A DNA stretch of 64,000 nucleotides from contig BMTG01000013.1 of assembly GCA_014649555.1 (NCBI GenBank), forward strand, positions 186,001-250,000. The letters are read 5' to 3'. Of this stretch, positions 47,616 through 63,259 are shown in pieces (position 1 is the stretch's first letter; every line of letters begins with the position of its first letter). Both the position numbers and the translations under genes were made by a program. Source of the stretch: Streptomyces globisporus. Its GTDB lineage: Bacteria; Actinomycetota; Actinomycetes; Streptomycetales; Streptomycetaceae. Under the pieces are notes generated by a model, which saw only the letters and a list, made by a program, of their open reading frames with translations, did not search any database and was not told the origin of the DNA.

Positions 47616-48626
47616 TCACCCCGTGGGCAGATCGGTCGGAAGGGCGGCGGCACCGTCCTTGGTGACCCGGGTCGCACCGAAGTAGTCCGGCGTATCGATC
47701 TTGTCGAACCGAATGACCGCCCCGGTGAACGGCGCATTGATCATATAGCCGCCCCCGACGTACAACCCGACGTGCCGGATGGCCCGCGAATTGGTGAGGT
47801 CGTCGGAGAAGAACACCAGATCCCCCGGAAGCAGCTCGTCCCGCGAGGGGTGCGGCCCGGCGTTGTACTGGTCGTTGGCAACACGCGGCAGCTCGATCCC
47901 GACCGTCCGGTACGCGGCCTGGGTCAGCCCGGAACAGTCGAACCGCCCCTGCTGCTCGGGCGTACCGTTGCCGCCCCACAGATAGGGCGTGCCGAGCTTC
48001 TTCTGGGCGAAGTAGATGGCCCCGGCGGCCTGCCGGGAGGGCGCGACCCGGCCGACGGGCCGGGCGAAGCTCTTCTCCAGGGAACGGATGATCTTGACGT
48101 AGTTCTGCGTCTCTTTATAAGGAGGCACGCCGCCGTACTTGATCACCGCGTAGGCACCGGCGTTGTACGCGGCGAGCATGTTGTTCGTCGGGTCGCCCGG
48201 CACCTTCTTCACGTACCCGGCGATCTCGCAGTCGTACGAAGCGGCCGAGGGGATCGCGTCGGCGGGATCCCACACGTCCCGCTTGCCGTCGCCGTTGCCG
48301 TCGATCCCGTGCGTGGCCCAGGTGCCGGGGATGAACTGGGCGATGCCCTGCGCGGCGGCAGGGCTCTGCGCCCTCGGGTTCCAGCCGCTCTCCTGGTACA
48401 ACTGCGCGGCGAGCAGCGCCGGGTTGATGGCGGGACAGAGGTTGCCCCATTTCTGCACCAGCGGCTGGAAGCGCGCGGGCACCGCCCCCTTGGCCAGCGC
48501 GACGGCACCGCCGCCCCCCGACCCGGCGAGCCCGGCTGCGGCGGAGTACGTACCGACGACGAGCAGCGCCAGGAAGCACATGACCATGCCGACGCCGATG
48601 CCACCGAACACCCAGAATTTCCGCAC
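47616..48626 (-). CDS. Lytic transglycosylase/NlpC-P60 endopeptidase (VirB1-like)
   Basis: 336 residues. An N-terminal membrane anchor (about 5-30) is followed by an SLT domain (about 55-190: Glu in LYQESGWNPRAQS, AQGIAQFIPGTW, AAYNAGAYAVIKYGG). An NlpC/P60 domain (about 200-330) has Cys in RFDCSGLTQAAYRT and His in IRHVGLYVGGG. The first domain cuts glycan strands, the second peptide stems. Two-domain wall hydrolases of this type accompany type IV secretion systems in Gram-positives. Here the T4SS-like genes begin 8 kb to the right, and two hydrolase/lipoprotein pairs lie between. No terminator follows within 100 bases. Confidence 0.93.
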   Translation of the reverse strand: MRKFWVFGGIGVGMVMCFLALLVVGTYSAAAGLAGSGGGGAVALAKGAVPARFQPLVQKWGNLCPAINPALLAAQLYQESGWNPRAQSPAAAQGIAQFIPGTWATHGIDGNGDGKRDVWDPADAIPSAASYDCEIAGYVKKVPGDPTNNMLAAYNAGAYAVIKYGGVPPYKETQNYVKIIRSLEKSFARPVGRVAPSRQAAGAIYFAQKKLGTPYLWGGNGTPEQQGRFDCSGLTQAAYRTVGIELPRVANDQYNAGPHPSRDELLPGDLVFFSDDLTNSRAIRHVGLYVGGGYMINAPFTGAVIRFDKIDTPDYFGATRVTKDGAAALPTDLPTG

Positions 48627-48762: not shown

Positions 48763-49350
48763 TCACGGTCCTTTCCCGGACCAGAAGTCGGAACGGACGT
48801 TGGGCCGGGGCAGCGGATAGACGTCCTTGTAGGCGGGACCGTTGGGCTCGGTGGTGGGGTCGGCGACCTTCGACTCCTTCACGCAGGGGCTGTCGGCCTC
48901 CAGGAAGGCCTGCCCCTTCCCCCGGAAGGAGACGCTGACACCGAATCCGCTCCTGGTGACCGCGTAGACCGCGGGGAACTTCTCGTCCTTGTTGACGGCC
49001 TTGATCCGGTAGCCGTTCTTCCGCCAGAAGTTCTCCGCCCGGTCGAGGAACGTCTGCCGGCGCTCGGGGGAGACGACGGTCATGACGGTACGCCGACGGG
49101 TCACCCCGCAGGCCCGGGTGGTGGTGGGCCCATGGGCCCACTGCACATCGGGATCGATGCCCTTGAGGACGGCATCGAGCATGGCGTCGGACTGCTCGGC
49201 GGCTTCCTGCATATCCACGCCCTTCTCCTTCCCGGCGCTCACACCGTCACCCCGCGCGCCGCTCTCACTTCCGCACCCGGCCAGCGGAACCCCGAGGGCC
49301 AGGACCAGGACCACCGCGACGGGGGGCAGGGCCCGCTTCGCTCGCCTCAC
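48763..49350 (-). CDS. Lipoprotein A, partner of DUF1023 hydrolase
   Basis: 195 residues from a GTG that overlaps the stop of the upstream hydrolase (GTGA). The lipobox is LAGC with Cys26. The mature part is a small alpha/beta domain with two conserved Cys: HGPTTTRACGVTRRRTVMTVVSPERR and LEADSPCVKESKVADP, ending PRPNVRSDFWSGKGP. It is clearly paralogous to the lipoprotein at 51974-52513. Both are coupled to a DUF1023 hydrolase gene, so each lipoprotein probably anchors, folds or inhibits its hydrolase. Function otherwise unknown. Confidence 0.82.
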   Translation of the reverse strand: MRRAKRALPPVAVVLVLALGVPLAGCGSESGARGDGVSAGKEKGVDMQEAAEQSDAMLDAVLKGIDPDVQWAHGPTTTRACGVTRRRTVMTVVSPERRQTFLDRAENFWRKNGYRIKAVNKDEKFPAVYAVTRSGFGVSVSFRGKGQAFLEADSPCVKESKVADPTTEPNGPAYKDVYPLPRPNVRSDFWSGKGP

Positions 49351-51740
49351 TTCGGTTCCTCCATCTTGAGCCGGTCGGCGTTGCCCGACACGATCAGGGC
49401 GATGCTGTCCGCGGACACGGCGTCGCGTTCCGGGCTGAAGTAGTTCGAGTGCGAGTCCAGACTGATGCCGCTCCCGCTGACGAGGGGCGGCCCGTCGGCC
49501 ACCGGGAAGCGCCGGGCCCCGAACGCCTTGCTCGCGGGATCCTTCCCGAACCAGAGGTCGTCGTCACCCGGATCGGCGAGATCGCCGGCGACGTACGCCC
49601 CGCCGGGTCCGCCCAGGGCCAGCCCGAGCCCGCCCACCACGACCTGGGTCTTCGAAGGCAGTTTGGTCACCGGGTCGTTGGCGGCGGCCCCCACGAAGAC
49701 GTGCTCGCTGCCGACGCCGAGATCCACGGCGTGATCGACGCCGACCCCCGGGCTGCCGACGAGGATGATGTCGTCGACCCCGGGGATCCCCCCGGGCCGG
49801 GCGGCCGCGGCGCCCACGGTGCGGGACCCGTAGGAGTGCCCGATGGCCGTCAGATGCGGGTCCTTGTTCTGGTTGGTGACGGAGATCCCGCCCATGAAGT
49901 CGCGGTAGGCCGCCCCGCCCTTCTCGGCACGCCCGGTCCCCATGACGGCGAAGTAGCCGGCCGCCCCGTCCTTGTCCGGCAGCTGCGGGGCGTCGTACCC
50001 GAGCCAGACGATGGACGCCGTGGACTCGTCGTACCCCTGGGCCCCGATCGCGGTGTCGCGGGCCCGCCCGAGGTCGTTCTTGGCGAACTCCTCGTCGAGG
50101 GAGGTGTTGAGCCCCGGCACATAGGCGGACACGTGCTGCGAGGCATCAGGATTCCCGAACGACACGATCGCCCGCCCGTTCCCCTCATTCCCGATCCCGA
50201 TGAGATACATGGGCGGCTTCCCGTTCTCGTTCAACTGCCGCTCGATCTCGCGCAGCCCGGCCAGCTGGTCGCGGGCCTTGTCGGTGTCGACGCCCTCCAG
50301 CTTGTCGATGAGCGCCGGAAGGTTGCGGCGGTTGGCGGCGTCCCGGGCGAGAACGGGGATGCCGTCGAGGTTGCCGATCCGCTCCGGGACGAGCTCGATG
50401 TACCGCTCCCGCTCCTCCGGCGAGAGCCCGTCCCACCAGGCCTTGCGCTGGGCGGGCGTGGCGTTCTGCGGGATCCGCTCACTGAGGTGCGCCCGCTCGG
50501 CGTCCCGCACCTCGGCGTCGACCCGCGCCCCGGACCCGGGTATCGCCAGCCCGGCGCCGGCACCGCCGACAGCCTTGTTCCAGTCCCAGGCCGCACCGAT
50601 GTAGTCACCCCGCGCCCACTTCTGCTCCGCGCCGCGGGTGTCGCGCCCCCACTGACCGGCGATGCGCTGCCCGGTCTCCCCCGGCCGCAGCACCGCACCG
50701 ACGACCCCGCGGACGTCACCCCCGACCCCGTCCCCGAGAAACCCGTCGATGAACCCGCCGCCGTGCGGACCTGAGGGTCTACTCGCGTCGACCGGTGCGA
50801 TGGGGTCGTTTGGGGGGAAGGGGGTGGTGCCTTGGGGAGTATTGGGGGATCCAGTGGTGTCGCCGGTGGTGCCGGAGGTGCTGGTGCCGCCGGAGGTGTT
50901 GGGGGCTCCAGAGGTGGCGATGTCGCCGGGGCGGCCGCTGGTGCCGCTGGTCGCGCTGGTGCCGCTGGTGCCGCTGGTGGCGCTGGTGGCGTCCTCACCC
51001 GTGGTACCGGTGCTGCCGGTACCACCGGTAAGGCTGGACTCGCCCTCTCCACCCCCTCCGTCGGCACCGGCGCCCGGGGTGTCACGGGCCCCGCTGCCAC
51101 TGCCATCGGCACCCCCGTCACCGCTCCCGCCGGTGCCTCCACCGCCGGCCACGACGTCGCGTCCCGGCGCCGGGCACGAACTGCCGGTCAGTTCACAGAT
51201 CGCGCTGCGGATCTCCGCGGTGAGCTGCTGCCCGGTCCCCGTGGCCATGAGCCCGCCGACGAGTGCGACGACGACCAGGACGAGGCCGAGGTACTCCAGC
51301 GCGGTCTGCCCGCCGTCGCGGCGGAGCTTCATCATCCGGGCGAAGCTGAACAGCCGCTGCTCGGCCCGTTGCTCCGGGCCGCTGCGGAACCACCGCCGGC
51401 TCTCCGGCCGGCAGAGGAGCACGATGACGGCCACGGGCACGGCCAACCGCGCGACGCCTTGCCCCGCGGCCCCACCGCTCAGCTCGGCGAGGGCGCCGAG
51501 GACGATCCAGGCCAGCACGGCGAGGAGCCCGTACCAGACGCGAATCCCGCCATGCCGGACGTACAGCGACAGCACGAAGACGGCGACCCCGGGTAACGAC
51601 GCGTAGAGCAGCAGCCCGAGGAGGTACCCGTCGACCGCGTCCACCGAGGAGGCGGTCGACAGGGCCCGGATCGCGCCCACCAGGGTGGCCACGAAGAGAA
51701 CGTGAAGCAGGATCAGGGCCGCCTGCAACGGCCGGGGCAT
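49347..51740 (-). CDS. DUF1023 alpha/beta hydrolase with membrane domain and Flp-prepilin motif
   Basis: 797 residues from the ATG at 51738-51740; a TTG start 78 bases upstream (51816-51818) behind GTAGGGGA is an alternative. Residues 1-110 contain three to four hydrophobic segments. After FARMMKLRRDGG comes G|QTALEYLGLVLVVVALVG (Gly144 | Gln145), an exact Flp-type prepilin site (G, then Glu+5 and Tyr+6) ahead of a hydrophobic helix, then AICELTGSSC with two Cys. A Gly/Ser/Thr-rich linker (about 195-330) follows, and the C-terminal DUF1023 hydrolase (about 400-797) has nucleophile Ser636 in GHSYGSR and candidate catalytic His in LDSHSNYF. Coupled to lipoprotein A. Confidence 0.85.
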   Translation of the reverse strand: MPRPLQAALILLHVLFVATLVGAIRALSTASSVDAVDGYLLGLLLYASLPGVAVFVLSLYVRHGGIRVWYGLLAVLAWIVLGALAELSGGAAGQGVARLAVPVAVIVLLCRPESRRWFRSGPEQRAEQRLFSFARMMKLRRDGGQTALEYLGLVLVVVALVGGLMATGTGQQLTAEIRSAICELTGSSCPAPGRDVVAGGGGTGGSGDGGADGSGSGARDTPGAGADGGGGEGESSLTGGTGSTGTTGEDATSATSGTSGTSATSGTSGRPGDIATSGAPNTSGGTSTSGTTGDTTGSPNTPQGTTPFPPNDPIAPVDASRPSGPHGGGFIDGFLGDGVGGDVRGVVGAVLRPGETGQRIAGQWGRDTRGAEQKWARGDYIGAAWDWNKAVGGAGAGLAIPGSGARVDAEVRDAERAHLSERIPQNATPAQRKAWWDGLSPEERERYIELVPERIGNLDGIPVLARDAANRRNLPALIDKLEGVDTDKARDQLAGLREIERQLNENGKPPMYLIGIGNEGNGRAIVSFGNPDASQHVSAYVPGLNTSLDEEFAKNDLGRARDTAIGAQGYDESTASIVWLGYDAPQLPDKDGAAGYFAVMGTGRAEKGGAAYRDFMGGISVTNQNKDPHLTAIGHSYGSRTVGAAAARPGGIPGVDDIILVGSPGVGVDHAVDLGVGSEHVFVGAAANDPVTKLPSKTQVVVGGLGLALGGPGGAYVAGDLADPGDDDLWFGKDPASKAFGARRFPVADGPPLVSGSGISLDSHSNYFSPERDAVSADSIALIVSGNADRLKMEEPK

Positions 51741-51973
51741 CGACCGCCCGCCCGAACCCGCTACGGCAGCGCTTACATCGACGCCAACAGGGACCGCGCT
51801 TCTTCGTATGCCGGACAAGAGCAGTCCCCTACCTCGTGAGTGGGCGGAACGGGCGACAGGTCAGTCACTCCGCGTATGCGACCACACGGGCAGGGGGCAC
51901 GACATGGGCCCCAGGACCCAATACAGGGCTCAAAGCCCGCGCGTGTCAGTTGAGTTGAGCCACCGTGGCCCGA

Positions 51974-52513
51974 TCACGACCCGGTTGCCGACCAGAAGTC
52001 GGAGTGGATGTTGGGGCGGGGGATGAACTCCGCGTCGGGCGCGAGGAACGCGGTGGCCTGGCTGGTGGAATCGGCTACCTCGGAGTGGCGGACGCAGGGG
52101 CTGTCCACGTCGAAGTGCACTTGGCCTTTGTCGGCGACGATCAGGGCAACTTGAAACCCATCCTGCGTCCTCGCGTAGATCGCGGGGACGTCTACATCAT
52201 TATTGATGGCTGTCATACGGTAGTCGCTCTTCCGCCAGAAACGGTCCACCACACCAAGAAGGCTCCCCCTCCGCTGAGCGGAGACAACAGTCATGACTGT
52301 CCTCCGTCGAGTAACAGTGCAACTGCCCGTGGTCGTAGGGCCATGCACCCAATCCACACTCGGTTCGATCTCGGCGAGAATTCCATCCAGGATCTCGTCC
52401 GCACGTTCCGCAGCCCCCTGCATGTCCATATTCCCCCCTCGCGTTTCAATACAGCCGGCCAGCAACGCCCCAACGAGCACCATCAGAATTTGTGATGAAC
52501 CTCGGAAATTCAC
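51974..52513 (-). CDS. Lipoprotein B, partner of DUF1023 hydrolase
   Basis: 179 residues from a GTG that overlaps the stop of the hydrolase at 52510 (GTGA). The lipobox is LLAGC with Cys21. It shares HGPTTTGSCTVTRRRTVMTVVS, VDSPCVRHSEVAD and PRPNIHSDFWSATGS with lipoprotein A, in the same order and spacing. DNA here is visibly richer in A/T than its neighbours. The pair arose by duplication of a hydrolase-lipoprotein cassette, then diverged. Confidence 0.82.
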   Translation of the reverse strand: MNFRGSSQILMVLVGALLAGCIETRGGNMDMQGAAERADEILDGILAEIEPSVDWVHGPTTTGSCTVTRRRTVMTVVSAQRRGSLLGVVDRFWRKSDYRMTAINNDVDVPAIYARTQDGFQVALIVADKGQVHFDVDSPCVRHSEVADSTSQATAFLAPDAEFIPRPNIHSDFWSATGS

Positions 52514-54330
52514 CGCGCGTCTTCCGTCTTGATTTTGTGCGAACGACCTGCAGCGATCAGCGCCATATTGTCAACCGACGCCTTATCCAACTCCGGGTCA
52601 AAATATTCGGAATGCGCGTCAATCGTCGGCTTCCCTCTCCCGATCAGGGGCGGACCATCCCCCACCTCGAACCGCCTCGCCCTGAACGCTTCACTGGCCG
52701 GGTCCCTGCCGAACCAGACATCATCGTTCCGCCGGTCGACCAGGTCACCAAAGGCGTAGGCGGCCGCGGGGCCCCCGAAACCCACTCCAGCCATCCCCAG
52801 CACTGATTCAGCCTTGGACGGAAGCTTGGTCACCACGTCGTTTGCAGCAGCCCCGACAAAGACATGGTCCCGCCCTACTCCCAAGTCATCGGCACTGTCG
52901 ACACCCACTCCCGGGCTTCCGACGAACACGATTTCATCAACACCGGGAATTCCCCCAGGGTGTTGCGCAGCGCCGCCCACCGCCCGGGACCCGTAGGAGT
53001 GCCCGATGGCCGTCATATGAGGATCCTCATGGTCGTTAGTCGCTGTAATCCCTCCCATGAACTCATGGAATGCTCTAGCGCCCTCCTCTGCCCTGCCATC
53101 CACAGCGACAGCTAGGCTCCGGAGCCCGTCAGGCGACTGGGGCGCGTCATAACCGAGCCAGGTAATGGCAGCGGTCGGCGCTCCATGACGATTGGACGCG
53201 ATAGACAGATCCCGCGCCCGCTTCAAATCCCCCTCCGCAAACTCCTTATCCAACGACGTATTCAACCCCGGCACATAAGCCGCCACATTCCGCGCCGCAT
53301 CCGGATTCCCATACGAAACGATCGCCCGACCATTCCCCTGGTCCCCGATCCCGAGCAGATACATCGGCGGCTCCCCCGCCTTCGGCCCCGCCCGCAACTG
53401 CCGGTCGATCTCTCGCAGCGCCGCAAGCTTGGTCGCCGAATCGTCGTCGTCCCGACCCTCCAGCTTCCCCATCAGCAACTGAAGGTTGTCCCGGTTCGCC
53501 GCGTCCCGCACCAGGGCCGGAATCCCGTCCAGGTTGCCGATCCGGTCCGGGTACACCGCGAGGTACTCCTCGCGCTGTTCGTCCGTCAGGCCGGCCCACC
53601 ACGCCTTCCGCTCCGCCGGACTCGCATCGTGCGGGATCGCGTCCCTCAGGTATCCGCGCGCCGCATCCCGCACCGCCGCCGCATCGGCCGCCGCGTCCGT
53701 CCACGTCGCCACCGGAACGCCCAGCCCCTCGTGCGCTTTCAGCGACCGCAGGATCCTGGTGTACCGCCAGTCCGCATCGGCCGCCGCCCGCACCGCCTGC
53801 GCCACCCGGTCCGCGATGTCCTGGGCCTTCCCCGCGTTCGGGTTGGGTGCGACGAGACCCGAGGGCGGGACCATGCCCGGGTTCGGCACCCCCGACGCCG
53901 TCCCGCCCGCCGGTGGCTTCCCGTCGACCAGGCCCTCGCCCGCCGCCGGATACGTCACCGATCCATCCGCGTGCACCGTGAAATTCAACGCCGCCGCATC
54001 ATCCAGCGCCCCCTGCAACACCCGCTGCTGGGCCTTGATCTCATGGGCCAGGCTGTTCAGCGCGGTCCGCAGCAGCCCGCACTCGGTGTAGATGTACTGG
54101 AAGTTCGTCCCCAGCCGCCGTAACCCCCGCACGGCCGCGTCCGGCGCCTCCCCCCTCTGCGTATCGCGCAGGCCCGGCAGGAGCTGCCCCTCGATACGGT
54201 CCCGGGCCGCGTCCGCCCGGTTGCCGACCCGCCCCCAACCGTCCGCCGCCTGCTCCAGTTCGGCGCACTTCACCTCACGTAACACCGACCAGGTCAGGCC
54301 GGAACCCGCCCCACCGCTCCGCCCTCTCAC
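52510..54330 (-). CDS. DUF1023 alpha/beta hydrolase with WXG-like N-terminal domain
   Basis: 606 residues from the GTG at 54328-54330, overlapping the upstream gene (GTGA). N-terminal helical domain (about 12-125: LTWSVLREVKCAELEQAADGWGRVGNRADAARDRIEG ... FQYIYTECGLLRTALNSLAHEIKAQQ) resembles the WXG/ESX-type segment of many Streptomyces secreted proteins, and ends in LNFTVHADGSVTYP. The C-terminal DUF1023 hydrolase has Ser445 in GHSYGSR, Asp498 in AAAND and His573 in IDAHSEYF as likely triad. It shares long stretches with the hydrolase at 49347. The 3' half (below about 53,250) is A/T-richer than the 5' half. Probably an exported lipase or esterase. Confidence 0.85.
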   Translation of the reverse strand: MRGRSGGAGSGLTWSVLREVKCAELEQAADGWGRVGNRADAARDRIEGQLLPGLRDTQRGEAPDAAVRGLRRLGTNFQYIYTECGLLRTALNSLAHEIKAQQRVLQGALDDAAALNFTVHADGSVTYPAAGEGLVDGKPPAGGTASGVPNPGMVPPSGLVAPNPNAGKAQDIADRVAQAVRAAADADWRYTRILRSLKAHEGLGVPVATWTDAAADAAAVRDAARGYLRDAIPHDASPAERKAWWAGLTDEQREEYLAVYPDRIGNLDGIPALVRDAANRDNLQLLMGKLEGRDDDDSATKLAALREIDRQLRAGPKAGEPPMYLLGIGDQGNGRAIVSYGNPDAARNVAAYVPGLNTSLDKEFAEGDLKRARDLSIASNRHGAPTAAITWLGYDAPQSPDGLRSLAVAVDGRAEEGARAFHEFMGGITATNDHEDPHMTAIGHSYGSRAVGGAAQHPGGIPGVDEIVFVGSPGVGVDSADDLGVGRDHVFVGAAANDVVTKLPSKAESVLGMAGVGFGGPAAAYAFGDLVDRRNDDVWFGRDPASEAFRARRFEVGDGPPLIGRGKPTIDAHSEYFDPELDKASVDNMALIAAGRSHKIKTEDAR

Positions 54331-54761
54331 CGCACACCACCGACGCTCGGCGTCTCCACCCCGTCGAAGCCGCTCTTCACCGCCTCGTTGGCCTGCGTCT
54401 GGCCCTGGACGACCGCCCGCATCTTCCCGCCGAGGCTCCCGCACTCCTTACGCGCGTCCTCGATCCGGCGCTCCCACGAGGCTCGCACGGCGCCCAGTTC
54501 CGCCAGCGCGGACAGCGCCCCGGCCCCGGCGGTCACGCCCTGGTGCGCCACCTCCAGTTCGCCTTTCACCGGACCGAGGAGCGTGACCAGTTGGTCGGCC
54601 CCACCGGCGGCCCGCAGCCAAGGACCACGGCTGTGCCGGAGATCCCCGCCCCCGGCCGCCCCCGACGATCCCGCAGCACCCGCCGGTCCGGCCCACCCCG
54701 CCGCCCGCTCCCGGTCCCCGTCCGGCTGCCCGACCACGGTCACTCCGCCCACACCGCTCAC
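54327..54761 (-). CDS. Small helical WXG100-like protein upstream of DUF1023 hydrolase
   Basis: 144 residues from GTG 54759-54761 behind AGGAG. A Gly/Ala-rich N-terminus (1-45) is followed by two predicted helices (LRAAGGADQLVTLLGPVKGELEVAHQGV and ASWERRIEDARKECGSLGGKMRAVVQGQTQANEAVKSGFDGV). Size, helix pattern and position directly in front of, and coupled to, a hydrolase with a WXG-like domain suggest a T7SS/ESX-type partner. The classic central WXG turn is not evident, so the assignment is tentative. Confidence 0.6.
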   Translation of the reverse strand: MSGVGGVTVVGQPDGDRERAAGWAGPAGAAGSSGAAGGGDLRHSRGPWLRAAGGADQLVTLLGPVKGELEVAHQGVTAGAGALSALAELGAVRASWERRIEDARKECGSLGGKMRAVVQGQTQANEAVKSGFDGVETPSVGGVR

Positions 54762-55681: not shown

Positions 55682-55943
55682 CCCGCGAACGCTGCGACCG
55701 CATCAGAACCCATGGCCACCGTCGTTGCTCCTGGTCACAGCGCATGATACACAGAGTAACCAGTCATCTGCGCGAGGATCGGACGATCCGCAGGTCAGGG
55801 CGACCGCCCCGGTCAAACGTGCGAGATCCGGGTAAAGAGACCCGGGAAGGCGTCGTGCGAGCACGGTTTCATCAGCGAAGATAGAAGGCGACCCATGCCG
55901 GACGGCACGGGCAGCGAACTACCCAACAGGGGCGGTGACTTAC

Positions 55944-56252
55944 ATGATCCTGGCAGCAGAGAAGGGCGACATCACCACCATCATCGGCGGAATCGCTCCG
56001 GACTGGGGGCCGTTCGGGACGCTGGGCAACGAGGCGCGCATCATGATCGAGGTGGTGATGGCCATCGCCATCCTGCTCTGCCTCGGCATCGCGATCTGGG
56101 GTGCTGCGAAGCAGCGCATCGGAGCGACGGCACTGCGCGACACGTTCAGCGCGGAGCAGGGCAAGGGCCTGATCGTGGCAGGGCTGACAGGGGTCTTCAT
56201 CATCGGCTCCCTGGGGACCCTGTTCACCATCGTGTACGGAATGGCCGTCTGA
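55944..56252 (+). CDS. Small two-TM protein, VirB2-like position in T4SS-like operon
   Basis: 102 residues from ATG 55944, chosen because GGGGCGG lies about 8 bases upstream; a GTG nine bases earlier is also open. Two hydrophobic helices (IMIEVVMAIAILLCLGIAIWGAAK and GLIVAGLTGVFIIGSLGTLFTIVYGMAV) are joined by a short charged loop containing KQRIGATALRDTFSAEQGKG. The size and topology match VirB2/TrbC-like pilin or core subunits of type IV secretion. First gene of the rightward operon 55944-63259. It corresponds to one of the cmd genes in S. coelicolor by position. Confidence 0.75.
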   Translation: MILAAEKGDITTIIGGIAPDWGPFGTLGNEARIMIEVVMAIAILLCLGIAIWGAAKQRIGATALRDTFSAEQGKGLIVAGLTGVFIIGSLGTLFTIVYGMAV

Positions 56253-56433
56253 CCCACCATCGGCCGGCTCCCACCTGGCCGTCCCGGACCGTTCCCCACC
56301 ATCCGCCCGTCGTGCTCACCGGCTGAGGTTGCGTCTCCCTGATGTCGAGTCACCACACCGCGCTCAAGCGGCAACCAGCACAGCTACCGTCGTCCTGCGC
56401 GGAACCGCACACGACCGAGGGAGCGAACGCGGC

Positions 56434-57303
56434 ATGAGTCCCGGTGACGAGCACGAGTACCGCGGCAAGGACCAGGGGGGCCGTGCGGACGACCCGTACA
56501 GCACGCTCGGCGGCACCCGTCAGACCCGTACCCGTCTTCCCGACGGCGACCCGGGCAACCCCAACGCGCGCCGCCCCGTCCGCAACTCCCGGTCCCTCGT
56601 GACGATCACCGGCATCGTCGTCCTCCTCGTCGCCGCCATCGCCTTCGCCAACCGGGGCGGTGGCAGCGACGACGACGCGTCCCCGGGAACCAAGAGCTCC
56701 GGAGCCTCGGGAAGCGCCCCCACCGCGGCCACCGGCACCAAGCCCGTCGAGGGCAAGAACGGCACGATCCCCTCAGGCTTCGCCCACGATGAGCAGGGGG
56801 CGCAGAGTGCGGCGGCGAACTACGCCGTGGCGCTGGGGTCGGCGGAGATGTTCACGAAGGAAAGCCGCCACCGAATCCTCGACACGGTCTACTCGCCCAC
56901 GGCAGCGGACAAACTGCGGTCGCCTCAAGATCGGGCCTACTCGGCCGATTTCCTCTCACGCCTCGGTCTCGACCCCGACGGCAATGCCCCGCAGGGCAGC
57001 ACCTTCATCTCACGGACCGTTCCGGTGGGCACGAAGGTGCTGGCGTTCGATGACGACACCGCAAAGGTAGCTGTCTGGTACACGGGACTCCTCGGCATGT
57101 CCGGCGAGGACTCCACAAAGCCCGTGAGCACCACCTGGAAGACATGGACCGCGCAACTGTCATGGTCGGACGGCGACTGGAAGGTGACCAGCGCTTCAGA
57201 GAGCGACGGCCCGGCACCCGTCCCCGGCGATGTGGCGGCTTCGAAGTCCGACACGATCAGCAAGGCCGTTGAAGAGTACGGAGGCTTCACTTATGCCAGG
57301 TGA
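56434..57303 (+). CDS. VirB8/TcpC-like single-TM protein
   Basis: 289 residues from ATG 56434. The N-terminus is cytoplasmic and disordered, with a single TM helix at about 54-72 (LVTITGIVVLLVAAIAFA). A Ser/Gly/Thr linker leads to an extracytoplasmic domain (about 115-270) with the alpha+beta order expected of NTF2-like VirB8/TcpC domains: SAAANYAVALGSAEMF ... AKVAVWYTGLLGM ... TWTAQLSWSDGDWKVTSASES. The resemblance is by pattern only. It overlaps the next gene by 11 bases. Confidence 0.72.
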   Translation: MSPGDEHEYRGKDQGGRADDPYSTLGGTRQTRTRLPDGDPGNPNARRPVRNSRSLVTITGIVVLLVAAIAFANRGGGSDDDASPGTKSSGASGSAPTAATGTKPVEGKNGTIPSGFAHDEQGAQSAAANYAVALGSAEMFTKESRHRILDTVYSPTAADKLRSPQDRAYSADFLSRLGLDPDGNAPQGSTFISRTVPVGTKVLAFDDDTAKVAVWYTGLLGMSGEDSTKPVSTTWKTWTAQLSWSDGDWKVTSASESDGPAPVPGDVAASKSDTISKAVEEYGGFTYAR

Positions 57304-58681
57304 CCCCAAGTGCCGCTTCCGTTCGGTGGCAGCCTCGCTGATCGGACTGCAGGCAGCCGCGCTGGTGTTCGCCGGACGCGCGGCGGCGGAGCCGACTCCA
57401 ACCCCGACGCCTACGCCTACGCCTTCACCGAGCGCCAACGAAGACTGCAGTCTGCTGTTCGGCGAGGTCAAGAAGTTCTGCGAGGAAGGAGAGGGTGCGA
57501 GCAGTCCCGGCAGCGTGCCCGGGTCGCCCGACCCCGCGGAGTCCCTCGACCCCCTCTCCTCCCTAGCCCAAGGCTGCGCCGACGCCGCCTCCTGGATCGT
57601 CGGCAAGCTCAGCGAGGCCGTCGAGTCCACGGCCAACGTCGACTTCACCAACCCCAAGTTCCTCCAGCAGTACGCCGTCATCTTCGCGGCCTCCACCATC
57701 CTCACCCTCGTCCTCTGGCTCCTCGCCGTCGCCAAGCGCGCCATCCGCGGCGTCCCCCTCACCACCGCGATCTCCGAAGCCGTCGGCTTCCTCTGGCTCA
57801 CCGTCCTCGCCTCGGCCTTCACCCCGCTGATCCTCTACACGATCGTCTCCGCCACCGACGGCGTCACCGAGATCATCGCCTCCGCCACCGGCGGCCAGAC
57901 GGACGTCTTCTTCGGCTCGTTCGCCGAAGCCCTCAAGAAGGGCGAGGACATCGGCGGCGGCCCGATCATGCTGATCGTCGTCTCGCTCGTCTCGATCCTC
58001 GCCGCCGGCATCCTGTGGCTGGAGCTCGTCATCCGCGCCGCCCTGCTCTACGTCGGCGCGCTCCTCGGGATCGTCGTCTACGCCGGGCTCGTCGACAAGA
58101 ACATGTGGGGCCACGTCCGCCGCTGGGCCGGCATCATGATCGCGGTCATCATGGTCAAGCCGGTCATCGTCATCGTCCTCGGCCTCGCCGGCGCACTCTC
58201 CTCGGGCGACGGACCCGACGCCTTCTCCGCCGTCGTCTCCGGCCTCTCCATCATCCTGCTGGCCATCTTCGCCTCCGCCATGATCTACCGCTTCGTCCCC
58301 GGCTTCGGCGACGAGATCCAGGGCGCCCGCACCAACCGCAAGCAGGCCACCGACGGCTCCCAGGCCGCCGCCCTCATCAGCTCCCCGGCCGCCCTCGTCT
58401 CCCAGGGCATCAAGACCCACAGCGGCCGCAACGACCAGAACAGCGGCGGAGGCGGCGCCCGCCCCGCCAACCCGGCCAGCGGCGGCGTCGCCGCCCACAG
58501 CTCCCGCACCTCCGGCGGAGGCGGCGGCGGGGTCGGCGGCGGATCTGTCCCCTCCGCCGCACCCTCGCCCCGCAGCGGCTCCGCACCCACCTCCGCCACC
58601 CCCCACAGCAGCCGCTCCTCCCGAGGCGGAAGCGGCTTCGGCAGCACAGGTAACTCGAGCACAGGAGGTGGAGGGCGTTGA
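57293..58681 (+). CDS. VirB6/TrbL-like polytopic membrane protein
   Basis: 462 residues from ATG 57293 behind GGAGG. A signal peptide (1-32) precedes a PTPTPTPTPTPSPS spacer and two Cys (EDCSLLFGEVKKFCEEG). Six hydrophobic helices follow between about 130 and 350 (VIFAASTILTLVLWLLAV, VGFLWLTVLASAFTPLILYTI, IMLIVVSLVSILAAGILWLELV, AGIMIAVIMVKPVIVIVLGL ...), then a 110-residue Gly/Ser-rich cytoplasmic tail. Topology fits the VirB6/TrbL channel component. It overlaps the next gene by four bases (TTGA). Confidence 0.8.
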   Translation: MPGDPKCRFRSVAASLIGLQAAALVFAGRAAAEPTPTPTPTPTPSPSANEDCSLLFGEVKKFCEEGEGASSPGSVPGSPDPAESLDPLSSLAQGCADAASWIVGKLSEAVESTANVDFTNPKFLQQYAVIFAASTILTLVLWLLAVAKRAIRGVPLTTAISEAVGFLWLTVLASAFTPLILYTIVSATDGVTEIIASATGGQTDVFFGSFAEALKKGEDIGGGPIMLIVVSLVSILAAGILWLELVIRAALLYVGALLGIVVYAGLVDKNMWGHVRRWAGIMIAVIMVKPVIVIVLGLAGALSSGDGPDAFSAVVSGLSIILLAIFASAMIYRFVPGFGDEIQGARTNRKQATDGSQAAALISSPAALVSQGIKTHSGRNDQNSGGGGARPANPASGGVAAHSSRTSGGGGGGVGGGSVPSAAPSPRSGSAPTSATPHSSRSSRGGSGFGSTGNSSTGGGGR

Positions 58682-60228
58682 CGACCCAGTCCCACACGAT
58701 GACGCCCCGCCGCACGTATCTCATCGGCCGCGCCCGGCCGAACGCGATCGTCGGCAAGAACCGCGAGACCGGCGAGATCGCCCTGATCATCGTCGGCGCG
58801 TTCCTCGGCATGATGAGCGGACTCCTCGTCCCCGTCCTCTCCCTCCGGATCGTCTGCCTCGTCGGCTTCCCGATGCTGGCCCTCGCCGTCGTGTACGTCC
58901 CGTACAAGGGCCGCACCTTCTACAAGTGGTTCGAGATCAACCGCACCTTCAAGCGCTCCCTCCGCCGCGGCACCGCCTACCGCTCGGGCGCCATGGAAGC
59001 CGGCGTCAGCGCCGACGGCCGCGAGGTCGAGATCGGCCCGCCCCCCGGCATCGGCCGGATCAGCTGGCTCGCCGCCCCCTTCGGCCCCGACGAGATCGCC
59101 GTACTCCTCCACGCCGACCGGCGCACCGTCACCGCCGCCATCGAGATCGAGGGCCCCGGCGTCGGCCTCCGCGACAGCGAGGACCAGGAAGCCCTCGTCG
59201 ACCGCTTCGGCACCCTCCTCAAGCACGTGGCCAACGGCGACGGCTTCGTCACCCGCCTCCAGATGCTCGCCCGCACCCTCCCCGCCGACCCCGACGCCCA
59301 CGCCAAGGACGTCACCCAGCGCGGCGACAAGACGTCCCCGGCCTGGCTCCAGGACTCCTACGACCAGCTGCAGTCCATGGTCTCCACCTCCAGCGAGCAG
59401 CACCGCGCCTACCTCGTCGCCTGCATGCACTACAGCCGTGAACTCGCCGCCGAGGCCAACGCCATGGCCCGCGCCGCCCGCCCCCACGGCGGCCGCAAGC
59501 TCGACCGCGACGCCGGCCTCGCCGTCGTCATGGCCCGCGAGCTCACCGACATCTGCGCCCGCCTCGCCGAGGCCGACATCCGGGTCCGCCAGCCGCTCGG
59601 CCAGAGCCGCGTCGCCTCCCTCGTGCACTCCATGTACGACCCCGACCACCCCATCGACCACATCCAGGCCATGACCAAGCGCAACGCCTGGCCCGCCGAA
59701 CTGGACGCGGTCGAGCCCACGTTCCTCCAGGCCAAGACCCGCGAGTCCACCACCCGCGCCCCCTGGTGCCACGCCACCGCCTGGGTGAAGGAGTGGCCGA
59801 TGACCCCCGTCGGCGTCAACTTCCTCGCCCCGCTCCTCGTCCACACCCCCGACGTCATCCGCACCGTCGCCGTCTGCATGGACCTCGAACCCACCGAGGT
59901 CGCCATCGAACGCATGCTGACCGAGAAGACCAACGACGACGCCGAGGCCAGCCGCCAGGCCAAGATGAACCGCACCGTCGACCCCCGCGACATCGCCGCC
60001 CACGGCCGGCTCGACCAGCGGGGTGAAGATCTCGCCAGCGGTGCGGCCGGAGTGAACCTGGTGGGGTACATCACGGTGTCGTCCCGCTCACCCGAGGCGC
60101 TCGCCCGCGACAAGCGCACGATCCGTGCCTCGGCCGGCAAGTCGTATCTCAAGCTGGAGTGGTGCGACCGCGAACACCACCGCGCCTTCGTGAACACCCT
60201 CCCGTTCGCCACCGGCATCCGCCGCTGA
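58678..60228 (+). CDS. SCO6880-family protein (VirB3-like TMs plus VirB4 N-terminal-like domain)
   Basis: 516 residues from TTG 58678, supported by GGAGGTGGAGGG and the four-base overlap with the preceding gene; an ATG at 58699 is an alternative. Two TM helices at about 33-75 (IALIIVGAFLGMMSGLLVPV, IVCLVGFPMLALAVVYV) resemble PrgI/VirB3. The large soluble part (about 100-516) has no nucleotide-binding motif but resembles the N-terminal domain of VirB4/TraC ATPases. It would pair with the ATPase encoded next. NCBI names such proteins SCO6880 family. Confidence 0.82.
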   Translation: MTTQSHTMTPRRTYLIGRARPNAIVGKNRETGEIALIIVGAFLGMMSGLLVPVLSLRIVCLVGFPMLALAVVYVPYKGRTFYKWFEINRTFKRSLRRGTAYRSGAMEAGVSADGREVEIGPPPGIGRISWLAAPFGPDEIAVLLHADRRTVTAAIEIEGPGVGLRDSEDQEALVDRFGTLLKHVANGDGFVTRLQMLARTLPADPDAHAKDVTQRGDKTSPAWLQDSYDQLQSMVSTSSEQHRAYLVACMHYSRELAAEANAMARAARPHGGRKLDRDAGLAVVMARELTDICARLAEADIRVRQPLGQSRVASLVHSMYDPDHPIDHIQAMTKRNAWPAELDAVEPTFLQAKTRESTTRAPWCHATAWVKEWPMTPVGVNFLAPLLVHTPDVIRTVAVCMDLEPTEVAIERMLTEKTNDDAEASRQAKMNRTVDPRDIAAHGRLDQRGEDLASGAAGVNLVGYITVSSRSPEALARDKRTIRASAGKSYLKLEWCDREHHRAFVNTLPFATGIRR

Positions 60229-60291
60229 CGCGGCCCCCCGCAGAGCACACCGAACCGACCCGACCCGCAACCAGAGAGGGCACCCCCAACC

Positions 60292-61719
60292 ATGCGAGAC
60301 CCCCTGTCCGCATTGTCGGATGCCTTCACCTCCTTCCTCTTCGGCAAGGTGGAGACGACCCGCCTCCCCGTCCGTACGTCCACGGGCCAGGCCCAGGCCG
60401 TCTACCTCCCCACCGCCGCCCCCGGCCTCGGCGACTCCGGCGTGATCATCGGCCGCGAGGTCTACAGCGGCAAGGGCTACATCTACGACCCCTTCCAGCT
60501 GTACGGACAGCAGCTCCCCGCCCCCCACTGGCTGGTCCTCGGCGAGTCCGGCAACGGCAAGTCGGCGCTGGAGAAGACCTACGTCCTGCGCCAGCTCCGC
60601 TTCCGCGACCGCCAGGTCGTCGTCCTCGACGCCCAGGGCGAGGACGGCGTCGGCGAGTGGAACCTCATCGCCCAGGAGCTGGGCATAACCCCCATCCGCC
60701 TGGACCCGACCGCAGCCCTCAACGGCGGCATCCGCCTCAACCCCCTCGACCCCTCCATCACCACCACCGGCCAGCTCGCCCTGCTCCGCACGATCATCGA
60801 AGTCGCGATGGGCCACGGCCTCGACGAGCGTTCCGGCTTCGCGCTCAAGGTCGCCCACGCCTACGTCACCGCGACCATCACCGACCGCCAGCCGGTCCTG
60901 ATGGACATCGTCGAGCAGCTGCGCCACCCCGAGCCCGAGTCCGCCGAGGCGATGAACGTCGACATAGACGATGTACGGGCCTGGGGCCTGGACGTCGCCC
61001 TCGTCCTGGACCGCCTCGTCGACGGTGACCTGCGCGGCATGTTCGACGGGCCGACCAGCGTCGGCATCGACCTCGACGCGCCCCTCATCGTCTTCGACCT
61101 CTCGCACATCGACCGCAACTCGATCGCGATGCCGATCCTGATGGCGATCGTCGGCGTCTGGCTGGAGCACACCTGGATCAGGCCCGACCGCAAGAAGCGC
61201 ATCTTCCTGGTCGAGGAGGCGTGGCACATCATCAACTCGCCCTTCGTCGCGCAGCTCTTCCAGCGCCTGCTGAAGTTCGGACGCCGCCTCGGCCTCTCGT
61301 TCGTCGCCGTCGTCCACCACCTCAGCGACGTGGTGGACGGAGCAGCGGCGAAGGAAGCGGCGGCGATCCTCAAGATGGCCTCCACCCGCACGATCTACGC
61401 CCAGAAGACGGACGAGGCCAGAGCGACCGGCCGGGTCATCGGCCTGCCCCGCTGGGCCGTCGAGATCATCCCGACCCTCACCCCCGGCATCGCCGTCTGG
61501 GACGTCAACGGCAACGTCCAGGTCGTCAAACACCTGATCACCGAGGCCGAACGCCCCCTGGTCTTCACCGACCGCGCCATGACCGAGGGATCGGCCATGG
61601 ACCCGGACGACCTGCTCCCCGAGGACATCCGCGCCGCCGAACGGGAGGCGGAGCAACGGGCGGCCCGGATCGAGCACCAGCAACGGATGAACGAGTCGTC
61701 AGAGTCAACGGTGGCCTGA
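60292..61719 (+). CDS. VirB4/TraC-like secretion ATPase
   Basis: 475 residues. Walker A is GESGNGKS at 84-91; Walker B is KRIFLVEEAWHII with Glu308/Glu309. RTIYAQKTDEARATGRVIGL and an Arg-finger-like VHHLSDVVDGAA segment match the VirB4/TraC/TraE C-terminal ATPase. The protein lacks the usual N-terminal half, which seems to be encoded separately by the upstream SCO6880-family gene. It should power assembly or substrate transfer of the T4SS-like apparatus at the membrane. Confidence 0.92.
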   Translation: MRDPLSALSDAFTSFLFGKVETTRLPVRTSTGQAQAVYLPTAAPGLGDSGVIIGREVYSGKGYIYDPFQLYGQQLPAPHWLVLGESGNGKSALEKTYVLRQLRFRDRQVVVLDAQGEDGVGEWNLIAQELGITPIRLDPTAALNGGIRLNPLDPSITTTGQLALLRTIIEVAMGHGLDERSGFALKVAHAYVTATITDRQPVLMDIVEQLRHPEPESAEAMNVDIDDVRAWGLDVALVLDRLVDGDLRGMFDGPTSVGIDLDAPLIVFDLSHIDRNSIAMPILMAIVGVWLEHTWIRPDRKKRIFLVEEAWHIINSPFVAQLFQRLLKFGRRLGLSFVAVVHHLSDVVDGAAAKEAAAILKMASTRTIYAQKTDEARATGRVIGLPRWAVEIIPTLTPGIAVWDVNGNVQVVKHLITEAERPLVFTDRAMTEGSAMDPDDLLPEDIRAAEREAEQRAARIEHQQRMNESSESTVA

Positions 61720-61720
61720 C

Positions 61721-63259
61721 ATGGCACGCCGACCACCGCGAGGCCGGGGCAACGGCCCCGCCCATCACGACGGGTACGACGACCGGCCCCAGGCCAGCGG
61801 CGGCATTCCGGACGGCCTGCTGATCGGCCTCCTGGCCCTCTTCCTCGCGGCCACCCTGGTCGCCTGGACGGCCACCGGTCTGGCCGGACTGTTCGCCCAC
61901 GGGGCCTGGCCGGACGGCGTGACGTTCACCCGCTCCCCGCTCGCCCTGCGCGAACTGGCCACCGCACCCCAGGATCTCCCCACGGCCTGGCCGGAGACCC
62001 CCGCGGCCCAGCTCTCCGGATACGGCCTGTTCTGGGGCCTGTTCATCGGCGAACTGATGGTGCTGCTGGTCCTCACGGTGTTCACGCTCGGGGTGGTGTC
62101 CCGTGGTCGTGCCGTACGGGAACAGCGGCGCGAGGAACAGGCCTTCACCGCATACGAGCCACATCTCCCGACGGACAAGCCGACACCGACACCACCCCAA
62201 GAGCAACCACAGCCGCAGGCGCAGGCGCAGGCACACCCCGAAGCCCCACCAGTCGCCGAGGAGACACCCTCTCCCCCCGAACCGAGCGAACCGAGCGCGG
62301 CCCTGCTCCCCTCCCCCCGCACCCCCCTCCTCGTCTACGCCCCCGCCCACGCCCGGCGCCCCACCGTCGTCCAGGCGATCCACGACGCCGAGGGCCCCGC
62401 GCTGGTCGTCACATCGGACCCCACGGTCTGGGCCGAGACGAAGGACGCCCGGGCCAAGCTCGGCCCCGTCCTCGTCTACGACCCGGGCCACCTCTGCGAC
62501 ACCCCCGCCCGCCTCCACTGGCCGCCCACCGCAGGCTGCGAGCTGCCCGACACCGCCGCCGTACGCGCAGCCGCCCTGCTCGCCCCGGTCCGCCCGCAGG
62601 CCAGGATCGACGCGGCGGTGGCCGACACGGCGCAGACACTCCTCCAGTGCTGGCTGCACGCGGCGGCGGTGGACGGCCGCCCGTTCCGCCAGGTGGCCCG
62701 CTGGGCCTCGGGGTCCGCCGCCCACGAACCGGTACGCCTCCTCCGTACCCACCCCAAGGCCGCGTCCGGACTCGCCGGGCTCCTGGAGTCCGCGCTCACG
62801 GCCTATCCGGAACGGCGCGAGATGGCGCAGGAGTTGACCGTACAGGCCTTCTCGGCGCTCTCCTCGGTGCACATCCGCGAGGCCTGCACGCCCAACCGAT
62901 CGGATGCGGCCGCACTGGAATCTTTTGCCCGCGAGGGGGGAACGCTCTACCTGGTGGGCGAACCCATCGAGGATCCCCGCTCACACCCGGGCGCGATGCC
63001 CCTCCTCACCGCGCTCGCCGCAGACGTGGTCGAGCACGGCCGCCGCATGGCCGCACGGTCAACCGACGGTCGGCTCGACCCACCAATGACGCTCGTCCTG
63101 GACGACGTCGCAGCCGTGGCGCCCCTTCCCCAGCTCCCGGAACTGCTGGCGACCGGCGAGATGCGGGGCATGCCCGCCCTGGTGCTGCTCCGCTCCCAGG
63201 AACAGGGCCGAGCCCGCTGGCGGGAAACCCTGCAGACACCGGCCCCGGGCATCGGCTAG
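61721..63259 (+). CDS. T4CP (VirD4/TraG)-like membrane protein without a P-loop
   Basis: 512 residues starting one base after the ATPase stop. Two TM helices (about 31-55 and 101-124) and a Pro/Gln-rich linker (150-198) lead to a coupling-protein-like RecA fold: GPALVVTSDPTVWAETKDARAKLGPVLVYDPGHL, where coupling proteins have 'VTSTKPDLL ... VFDP', and MTLVLDDVAAVAPLPQLPELLATGEMRGMPALVLLRSQEQGRARW as Walker B and sensor. The expected Walker A region (about 200-220, LLVYAPAHARRPTVVQAI) lacks GxxxxGK[ST]. It probably cannot hydrolyse ATP and may be a structural or adaptor remnant. Confidence 0.78.
   Translation: MARRPPRGRGNGPAHHDGYDDRPQASGGIPDGLLIGLLALFLAATLVAWTATGLAGLFAHGAWPDGVTFTRSPLALRELATAPQDLPTAWPETPAAQLSGYGLFWGLFIGELMVLLVLTVFTLGVVSRGRAVREQRREEQAFTAYEPHLPTDKPTPTPPQEQPQPQAQAQAHPEAPPVAEETPSPPEPSEPSAALLPSPRTPLLVYAPAHARRPTVVQAIHDAEGPALVVTSDPTVWAETKDARAKLGPVLVYDPGHLCDTPARLHWPPTAGCELPDTAAVRAAALLAPVRPQARIDAAVADTAQTLLQCWLHAAAVDGRPFRQVARWASGSAAHEPVRLLRTHPKAASGLAGLLESALTAYPERREMAQELTVQAFSALSSVHIREACTPNRSDAAALESFAREGGTLYLVGEPIEDPRSHPGAMPLLTALAADVVEHGRRMAARSTDGRLDPPMTLVLDDVAAVAPLPQLPELLATGEMRGMPALVLLRSQEQGRARWRETLQTPAPGIG

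Follow-up and report, generated by a model that had tools for sequence, protein, structure and literature searches.

The window examined here, a stretch of 64,000 nucleotides from Streptomyces globisporus (assembly GCA_014649555.1, contig BMTG01000013.1, positions 186,001 to 250,000 of the forward strand), carries two gene cassettes that very probably encode polymorphic toxin-immunity pairs, in which DUF1023 lipase-type toxins are accompanied by lipoprotein antidotes. The sequence-based part of this reading consists of a fixed pairing of hydrolase and lipoprotein, module exchange, remnants, tandem copies, co-replacement of both partners, a conserved catalytic triad and predicted folds. The five cassette genes are all located on the minus strand and comprise a small helical (WXG100-like) partner gene (54327..54761, 144 aa), the hydrolase gene hyd2 (52510..54330, with a GTG start in an open frame that extends to 54444), lip2 (51974..52513, 179 aa), the hydrolase gene hyd1 (49347..51818, TTG start), and lip1 (48763..49350, 195 aa). 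The genes lip1 and lip2 encode the predicted immunity lipoproteins of hyd1 and hyd2, respectively. GTGA overlaps occur at three junctions (49347-49350, 52510-52513, and 54327-54330), the last of which joins the small helical gene to hyd2. An initial annotation of this DNA had described two cassettes with a DUF1023 hydrolase directly before a lipoprotein and GTGA overlaps, and both the coordinates and the Pfam matches agree with this description.

Each toxin would be a fusion of a targeting module at its N-terminus and a DUF1023 alpha/beta-hydrolase at its C-terminus. Export, the lipid substrate, toxicity, binding, and inhibition are the steps that we infer. The hyd2 product would most likely leave the cell by a type VII secretion system (T7SS), and hyd1 has a membrane and Flp-pilin-like N-terminus that is also employed by other polymorphic toxins. 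Once outside, the enzyme would attack the membrane lipids of neighbouring cells. The lipoprotein would be anchored to the external side of the cytoplasmic membrane, where it may bind and block the cognate catalytic domain and so protect the producer and its kin.

Both hydrolases match Abhydrolase_8/DUF1023 (PF06259) above the gathering cut-off of 20.5 bits (hyd1, E 4e-33 and 115 bits; hyd2, E 2.5e-33 and 115.7 bits). The hydrolase domain spans aa 444-823 of hyd1 and aa 227-606 of hyd2, where it follows a helical (WXG/LXG-like) N-terminus of approximately aa 1-226. The C-terminal 383 residues of the two proteins share 60% identity (BLASTP, E 9e-159), and the same comparison gave no notable alignment for their N-terminal parts. 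The Ser, Asp, and His of the triad (S445, D498, and H573 in hyd2) are conserved at 1.00 among 164 aligned domains, near-duplicates included. The hydrolase alignment (A5) retained 41 of 52 candidates together with the window protein. Structure prediction gave an alpha/beta-hydrolase of the esterase/lipase fold with a Ser-Asp-His triad; this assignment rests on a separate comparison, as Foldseek scores for the whole hydrolase model were modest (best E 2.9e-4, TM 0.19-0.26). The earlier description of the same enzyme on two different delivery modules, each accompanied by a lipoprotein of its own, is well supported.

An alignment of the two lipoproteins over 181 columns shows 46% identity (E 4e-60), and they have three motifs in common, HGPTTT-x2-C-x-VTRRRTVMTVVS, DSPCV, and PN-x2-SDFWS, which the initial annotation had correctly listed. 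Because of this identity and the same order of the three motifs, the likeness is not attributable to chance. Both carry a lipobox, read by eye as L-A-G-C, after a hydrophobic stretch. Neither these proteins nor the relatives scanned matched Pfam or NCBIfam above the curated cut-offs, PADLOC had no match for the window lipoproteins, and a sequence search of the PDB returned none. The predicted structure has an LppA-like fold over most of the domain, with mycobacterial LppA (PDB 2v7s) as the closest entry and DUF4853 (PDB 4mjg) also similar, at 12-14% identity and without a sequence match. We know of no function for either LppA or DUF4853, and the LppA-like fold predicted for the lipoproteins does not indicate one. 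The lipoprotein alignment (A3) contains 81 of 86 candidate rows and the two window proteins. In 99.4% of 5671 pairs, the lipoprotein was less conserved than the hydrolase.

In addition to this family (family A), a second lipoprotein family (family B) is represented by two tandem copies behind the hydrolase of another cassette in the same genome (L120, on C9), which also has a small WXG-like gene. One hhalign comparison (probability 96.2, E 2.1e-9), performed separately from an iterated family B model that drew in family A, indicates a probable relationship between the two families. In other genera, several hydrolases are followed by a pair of lipoprotein relatives of which only one has a lipobox (L097, L099, L103, L104, L139, and L140), an arrangement that would be in keeping with protection at either side of the membrane. 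The lipoproteins behind the WXG-type hydrolases of L254, L258, and L264 seem to hold two tandem immunity-like domains. Lipobox-less relatives with no hydrolase recognised upstream occur in one other genus (L094, L095, L096, L112, L114, and L131-L136). At L124:1240-5047, an orphan family A lipoprotein lies two genes behind a 763-aa frame and is perhaps part of an immunity island.

The pairing of hydrolase and lipoprotein is fixed. In the genome contigs searched, the lipoprotein family occurs at 44 loci, 43 from Streptomyces and one from [Kitasatospora] papulosa, and all 44 have hydrolase sequence directly upstream on the same strand, although the hydrolase is cut by a contig end in two and broken in one. 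The lipoprotein profile matched 84 of 297 genomes of the window's family. Among 148 distinct lipoprotein-family genes, 125 follow a largely complete DUF1023 hydrolase at a distance of no more than 700 nt (a second lipoprotein within this distance being scored likewise), 7 are behind a hydrolase fragment, 1 is behind another lipoprotein, and 15 have no hydrolase. The association proposed in the initial annotation thus held among homologs. An overlap-type context (ATGA, GTGA, or TTGA), scored at the hydrolase stop rather than at each lipoprotein start, was found in 102 of 107 cassettes. The lipoprotein was also matched in 17 of 345 genomes sampled across the class, of which 10 are from outside the window's family. 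Eight of these out-of-family relatives lie behind a DUF1023 hydrolase, one is on a contig that starts inside the hydrolase, and one has neither gene recognised by the models. Tandem lipoproteins also occur in this set, and the hydrolase of L307, on visual inspection, has a pilin-like N-terminus of its own.

The pairing was also examined from the side of the hydrolase, with WXG type and Flp type denoting enzymes with a hyd2-like and a hyd1-like N-terminus, respectively. When WXG-type hydrolases were collected by searches with the N-terminus or the hydrolase, a family A or B gene lay downstream in 46 of 46 loci. The family A model recognised 29 of these genes; the other 17, which include the seed locus itself, were recognised with a model for which the two L120 lipoproteins were the sole seed. 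The first family B model had been built from rows of some of the same loci, and the count of 46 was repeated with the L120-only seed. For WXG-type hydrolases of the L120 kind, all 21 loci checked have a family A or B gene behind the hydrolase. In the set collected independently of the lipoprotein, a lipoprotein-family gene is located behind the single Flp-type hydrolase (1/1) and behind 2 of 7 hydrolases of other types. When all loci were pooled, including those fetched via the lipoprotein, the proportions with a lipoprotein were 93/93 for the WXG type, 19/19 for the Flp type, and 44/50 for the others.

These counts bear on the possibility that the enzymes are housekeeping or nutritional surface lipases with a tethering or regulating lipoprotein, the duplication in the window being ordinary paralogy. 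DUF1023 was found in all 16 genomes of the genus that were searched, as would be expected for such a role, and the invariant triad says only that the proteins are enzymes. However, plain DUF1023 loci have neither a lipoprotein-family gene (0/31) nor a WXG-type or Flp-type N-terminus (0/31). The genome of the window itself encodes seven DUF1023 genes, four with long N-termini and a lipoprotein and three plain ones without a lipoprotein. Moreover, the patchy distribution of the cassettes, the exchange of N-termini, and alleles common to several species do not fit a housekeeping role, which we regard as very unlikely.

The N-terminal module of hyd1 (51174..51818, minus strand) consists of four hydrophobic segments and a fifth inside a QTALEYLG segment of the Flp-pilin type, followed in the protein by a Gly/Ser/Thr linker, a middle domain, and the hydrolase; hyd2 has no hydrophobic segment. 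The module is also found on other toxins. An 870-aa protein in the same genome has a hyd1-like module (46% identity) and a Tox-REase-5 C-terminus (E 9.9e-20), and across the genus 44 of 199 genomes contain the hyd1 module. Among 30 chosen non-hydrolase proteins with a hyd1-like or related module, seven carry Tox-REase-5, seven PT-HINT, and two ADPrib_exo_Tox domains. As the module also carries these other toxin domains, hyd1 is built like a polymorphic toxin. Flp_Fap (PF04964) matched 3 of 30 proteins with a hyd1-like module (best E 0.0014); the same model left hyd1 unmatched and found nothing across the genome at E 0.001. Close to a free-standing Flp-like gene in the same genome, a scan of six neighbouring frames recognised only a two-component pair. 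Because of this result and the absence of PF04964 matches in the genome, a Tad route for hyd1 is unproven. Possibly another pair is encoded in the same genome at L151:2540-6308 (C1), where a 1036-aa protein that contains an internal Flp-like segment and matches no Pfam domain has a 216-aa lipoprotein-like protein, also without a Pfam match, directly behind it.

The N-terminus of hyd2 is modelled as a long helical hairpin (helices 22-57 and 61-114), and in a search with a profile of hyd2 relatives EsxA/EsxB were the six best PDB matches to this region, with weak E-values of 0.27-0.49. Wherever the WXG-type hydrolase is intact (36/36 loci), a relative of the small helical gene accompanies it; among five loci that hold only an Flp cassette, such a relative occurs in one, L022, which also holds a hydrolase remnant. 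EccD, the ESX component searched for, is encoded twice in the genome (E 4.9e-72 and 4.7e-51). Because of its ESX-type helical N-terminus and the small helical partner gene, hyd2 is most likely exported by a T7SS. The labels 'WXG-like' and 'prepilin-like' in the initial annotation fit in character, although both resemblances are weak by sequence and Pfam has no match for the hyd1 N-terminus, the hyd2 N-terminus, or the small helical gene. The further suggestion of an undescribed export or surface system did not hold, as library scans recognised no translocase in the cassettes and the N-termini resemble targeting modules of cargo proteins. An export or surface machine was accordingly rejected.

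Comparison of related loci indicates that the catalytic half of hyd2 and lip2 have one history, distinct from that of the rest of the locus, and the breakpoints between the two are sharp. Up to approximately position 53260, hyd2 shares 83-98% nucleotide identity with its close relatives. From there to near the end of lip2, identity to L002, L003, L004, L006, L007, and L012 is 50-72%, after which it recovers (least clearly in L007). L005 keeps 92-100% identity to the window through this segment, and L009, L011, and L013 are intermediate. In the window, the exchanged segment (52130..53220, minus strand) covers the catalytic half of hyd2, with all three triad residues, and most of lip2, and its G+C content is lower than that of its flanks. 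In its N-terminal part, L002 shares 93-94% identity with the window, L003, L004, and L005, whereas in the exchanged segment it shares 85% with L006 and 62-67% with the same four. Three allele classes (window and L005; L002, L006, and L012; L003, L004, and L007) cut across the relationships seen in the flanks.

Mantel tests were performed on 13 sequences, the window and 12 of the 18 loci with both a WXG and an Flp cassette (L014, L016, L017, L019, L021, and L023 were omitted as more distant). The catalytic half of hyd2 correlates with lip2 (r 0.947, p 0.0002), whereas the N-terminus of hyd2 correlates neither with lip2 (r 0.097, p 0.16) nor more than weakly with its own catalytic half (r 0.156, p 0.047). 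No correlation was found between lip2 and the hyd1 catalytic domain (r -0.003, p 0.44), and the latter follows the hyd2 N-terminus (r 0.877). The nearest neighbour by catalytic half differs from that by lip2 in 3 of the 13 (L002, L011, and L039), always within one allele class, and no class mismatch between catalytic half and lipoprotein occurs among the 13.

An alternative explanation is that the lipoprotein is a membrane-tethered, foldase-type chaperone that folds the exported lipase outside the membrane and then releases it, without any antagonism. The constant gene order and the overlap-type stop context would suit such a chaperone, as would the joint divergence of hydrolase and lipoprotein (Spearman 0.93 across 107 cassettes), although shared ancestry alone suffices to produce this value. 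However, some lipoproteins persist behind hydrolase fragments (the 7 of 148 noted above) and as tandem copies, and a foldase would be expected to disappear once its client is gone. Relatives of the hyd1 module bear nuclease and ADP-ribosyltransferase domains, and joint allelic replacement of a catalytic half and its partner is typical of toxin-immunity pairs. The chaperone is consequently improbable in our view. Lipase plus inhibitor or immunity, which the initial annotation had offered beside a chaperone, is the best reading. Several features of polymorphic toxins are found in the cassettes: an N-terminal module common to unrelated toxin domains (for hyd1 only, not seen for the hyd2 module), a partner gene directly downstream that is exchanged together with the toxin domain (by position and joint exchange, immunity itself being predicted), and toxin remnants together with extra immunity genes.

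The cassettes are bordered on one side by a gene for a VirB1-like cell-wall hydrolase with SLT and NlpC/P60 domains (47616..48626, minus strand, library match) and on the other by a type-IV-secretion-like cluster (55935..63259, plus strand), which matches the SCO6880 family (E 8.5e-57), a VirB4-like ATPase (AAA_10, E 7.9e-13), and, weakly, TraG. A relative of the VirB1-like gene marks the site in 36 of the 44 loci, and the other eight lie elsewhere. Cassettes come and go at this site: 18 of the 36 loci have both WXG and Flp cassettes, 10 have only the WXG and 5 only the Flp cassette (one with a hydrolase remnant), and 3 are broken or cut by a contig end. In L010, relatives of the first genes of the type-IV-secretion-like cluster are located directly beside the Flp cassette and the WXG cassette is absent; most fetched loci end before this flank. 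A third cassette in the same genome (L119, C1:1307000-1320000) has a small WXG-like gene, a split hydrolase, and an intact family A lipoprotein.

This setting raises the possibility that the pairs are toxins and antidotes delivered by the neighbouring type-IV-secretion-like apparatus instead of an ESX or pilus-like route. The position of the cassettes between the VirB1-like hydrolase and the VirB4/SCO6880 cluster, and the frequency of the VirB1-like flank, are in its favor. On the other hand, the 8 of 44 loci located elsewhere, the two further cassettes in the same genome, and the ESX-like N-terminus of hyd2 with its accompanying small WXG-like gene make type IV delivery unlikely.

Several observations weigh against toxin-immunity cassettes. 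DUF1023 enzymes without a lipoprotein are common and need not be toxins, and the WXG and Flp resemblances are weak by sequence. The hyd2 N-terminus was found only on DUF1023 proteins (28 of 29 loci; the remaining one, L237, is truncated at the end of its contig). The catalytic half of hyd2 and lip2 adjoin, and one recombination tract would move both whatever their function; for hyd1 and lip1, no allelic replacement was seen in the 11 sequences compared. The hydrolase of the third cassette is split over two frames. Of the 15 lipoprotein relatives without an upstream hydrolase, 11 belong to the lipobox-less offshoot in one other genus, and at least one family B gene (in L257) is without the lipobox cysteine.

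It seems reasonably likely that ESX-like and Flp-like DUF1023 hydrolases and fast-diverging LppA-fold lipoproteins form a large, unrecognised actinobacterial lipase toxin-immunity system, in which specificity is reset among relatives when the catalytic half and the lipoprotein recombine together as a single unit. On this reading, the immunity proteins would include many LppA-type lipoproteins that are so far uncharacterised, whether tandem or orphan, and some of them would be retained as a signal-less second copy for the cytosol. A predicted function would thereby be assigned to hydrolases of a widespread group and to a lipoprotein family that has no name, and a candidate for ESX-dependent antagonism would be available in harmless Streptomyces. 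Testable questions are thereby opened concerning the antibacterial cargo of Streptomyces ESX and Flp-like modules and LppA-type lipoproteins as antidotes, and the allelic series at one site is a natural experiment on the joint change of toxin and immunity specificity.

Alpha/beta-hydrolase toxins and T7SS lipase-lipoprotein pairs are already known kinds. The Tox-ABhydrolase-1/2/3 domains resemble hyd1 and hyd2 in that an alpha/beta-hydrolase forms the C-terminal domain of modular toxins, and the accessible text of that collection, which does not mention DUF1023, calls only Imm65, the partner of a JAB peptidase, a lipobox immunity protein (PMC3482391). Flp pilins are named among the modules fused to a toxin domain, with a Streptomyces mirabilis protein among the examples, in the portion available of a report on an ADP-ribosyl cyclase, a system that, unlike the window cassettes, is described there without a lipase or lipoprotein partner (PMC12605009). 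No description of DUF1023 toxins with lipoprotein partners was found in the literature searched, which covered few subscription journals. DUF1023 toxins with predicted LppA-fold lipoproteins on two exchangeable modules appear to be new as far as these searches reached.

By analogy of their working, the closest known system appears to be TslA/TilA of Staphylococcus aureus, a T7SS phospholipase A and its immunity lipoprotein, in which TilA protects cells and forms a 1:1 complex with the lipase domain (PMC10730906). As far as the available part of that report describes them, both systems would combine a serine lipase with a Ser/Asp/His triad, an ESX-type helical region, small helical partner genes, and an adjacent lipoprotein, and in both the lipoprotein genes vary in copy number (PMC10730906). 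TilA belongs to DUF576 (PMC10730906), whereas lip1 and lip2 have no Pfam family above the cut-off, DUF576 included, and their model is closest to LppA; among the 50 PDB fold matches listed, none was recognised by title as DUF576. The lipase domain is the first in TslA and C-terminal in hyd1 and hyd2, and tilA is the first gene of its cluster, whereas here the lipoprotein gene follows the hydrolase (PMC10730906). Unlike in TslA, as described in the same part of the report, the same lipase is here also found on an Flp-like module (PMC10730906).

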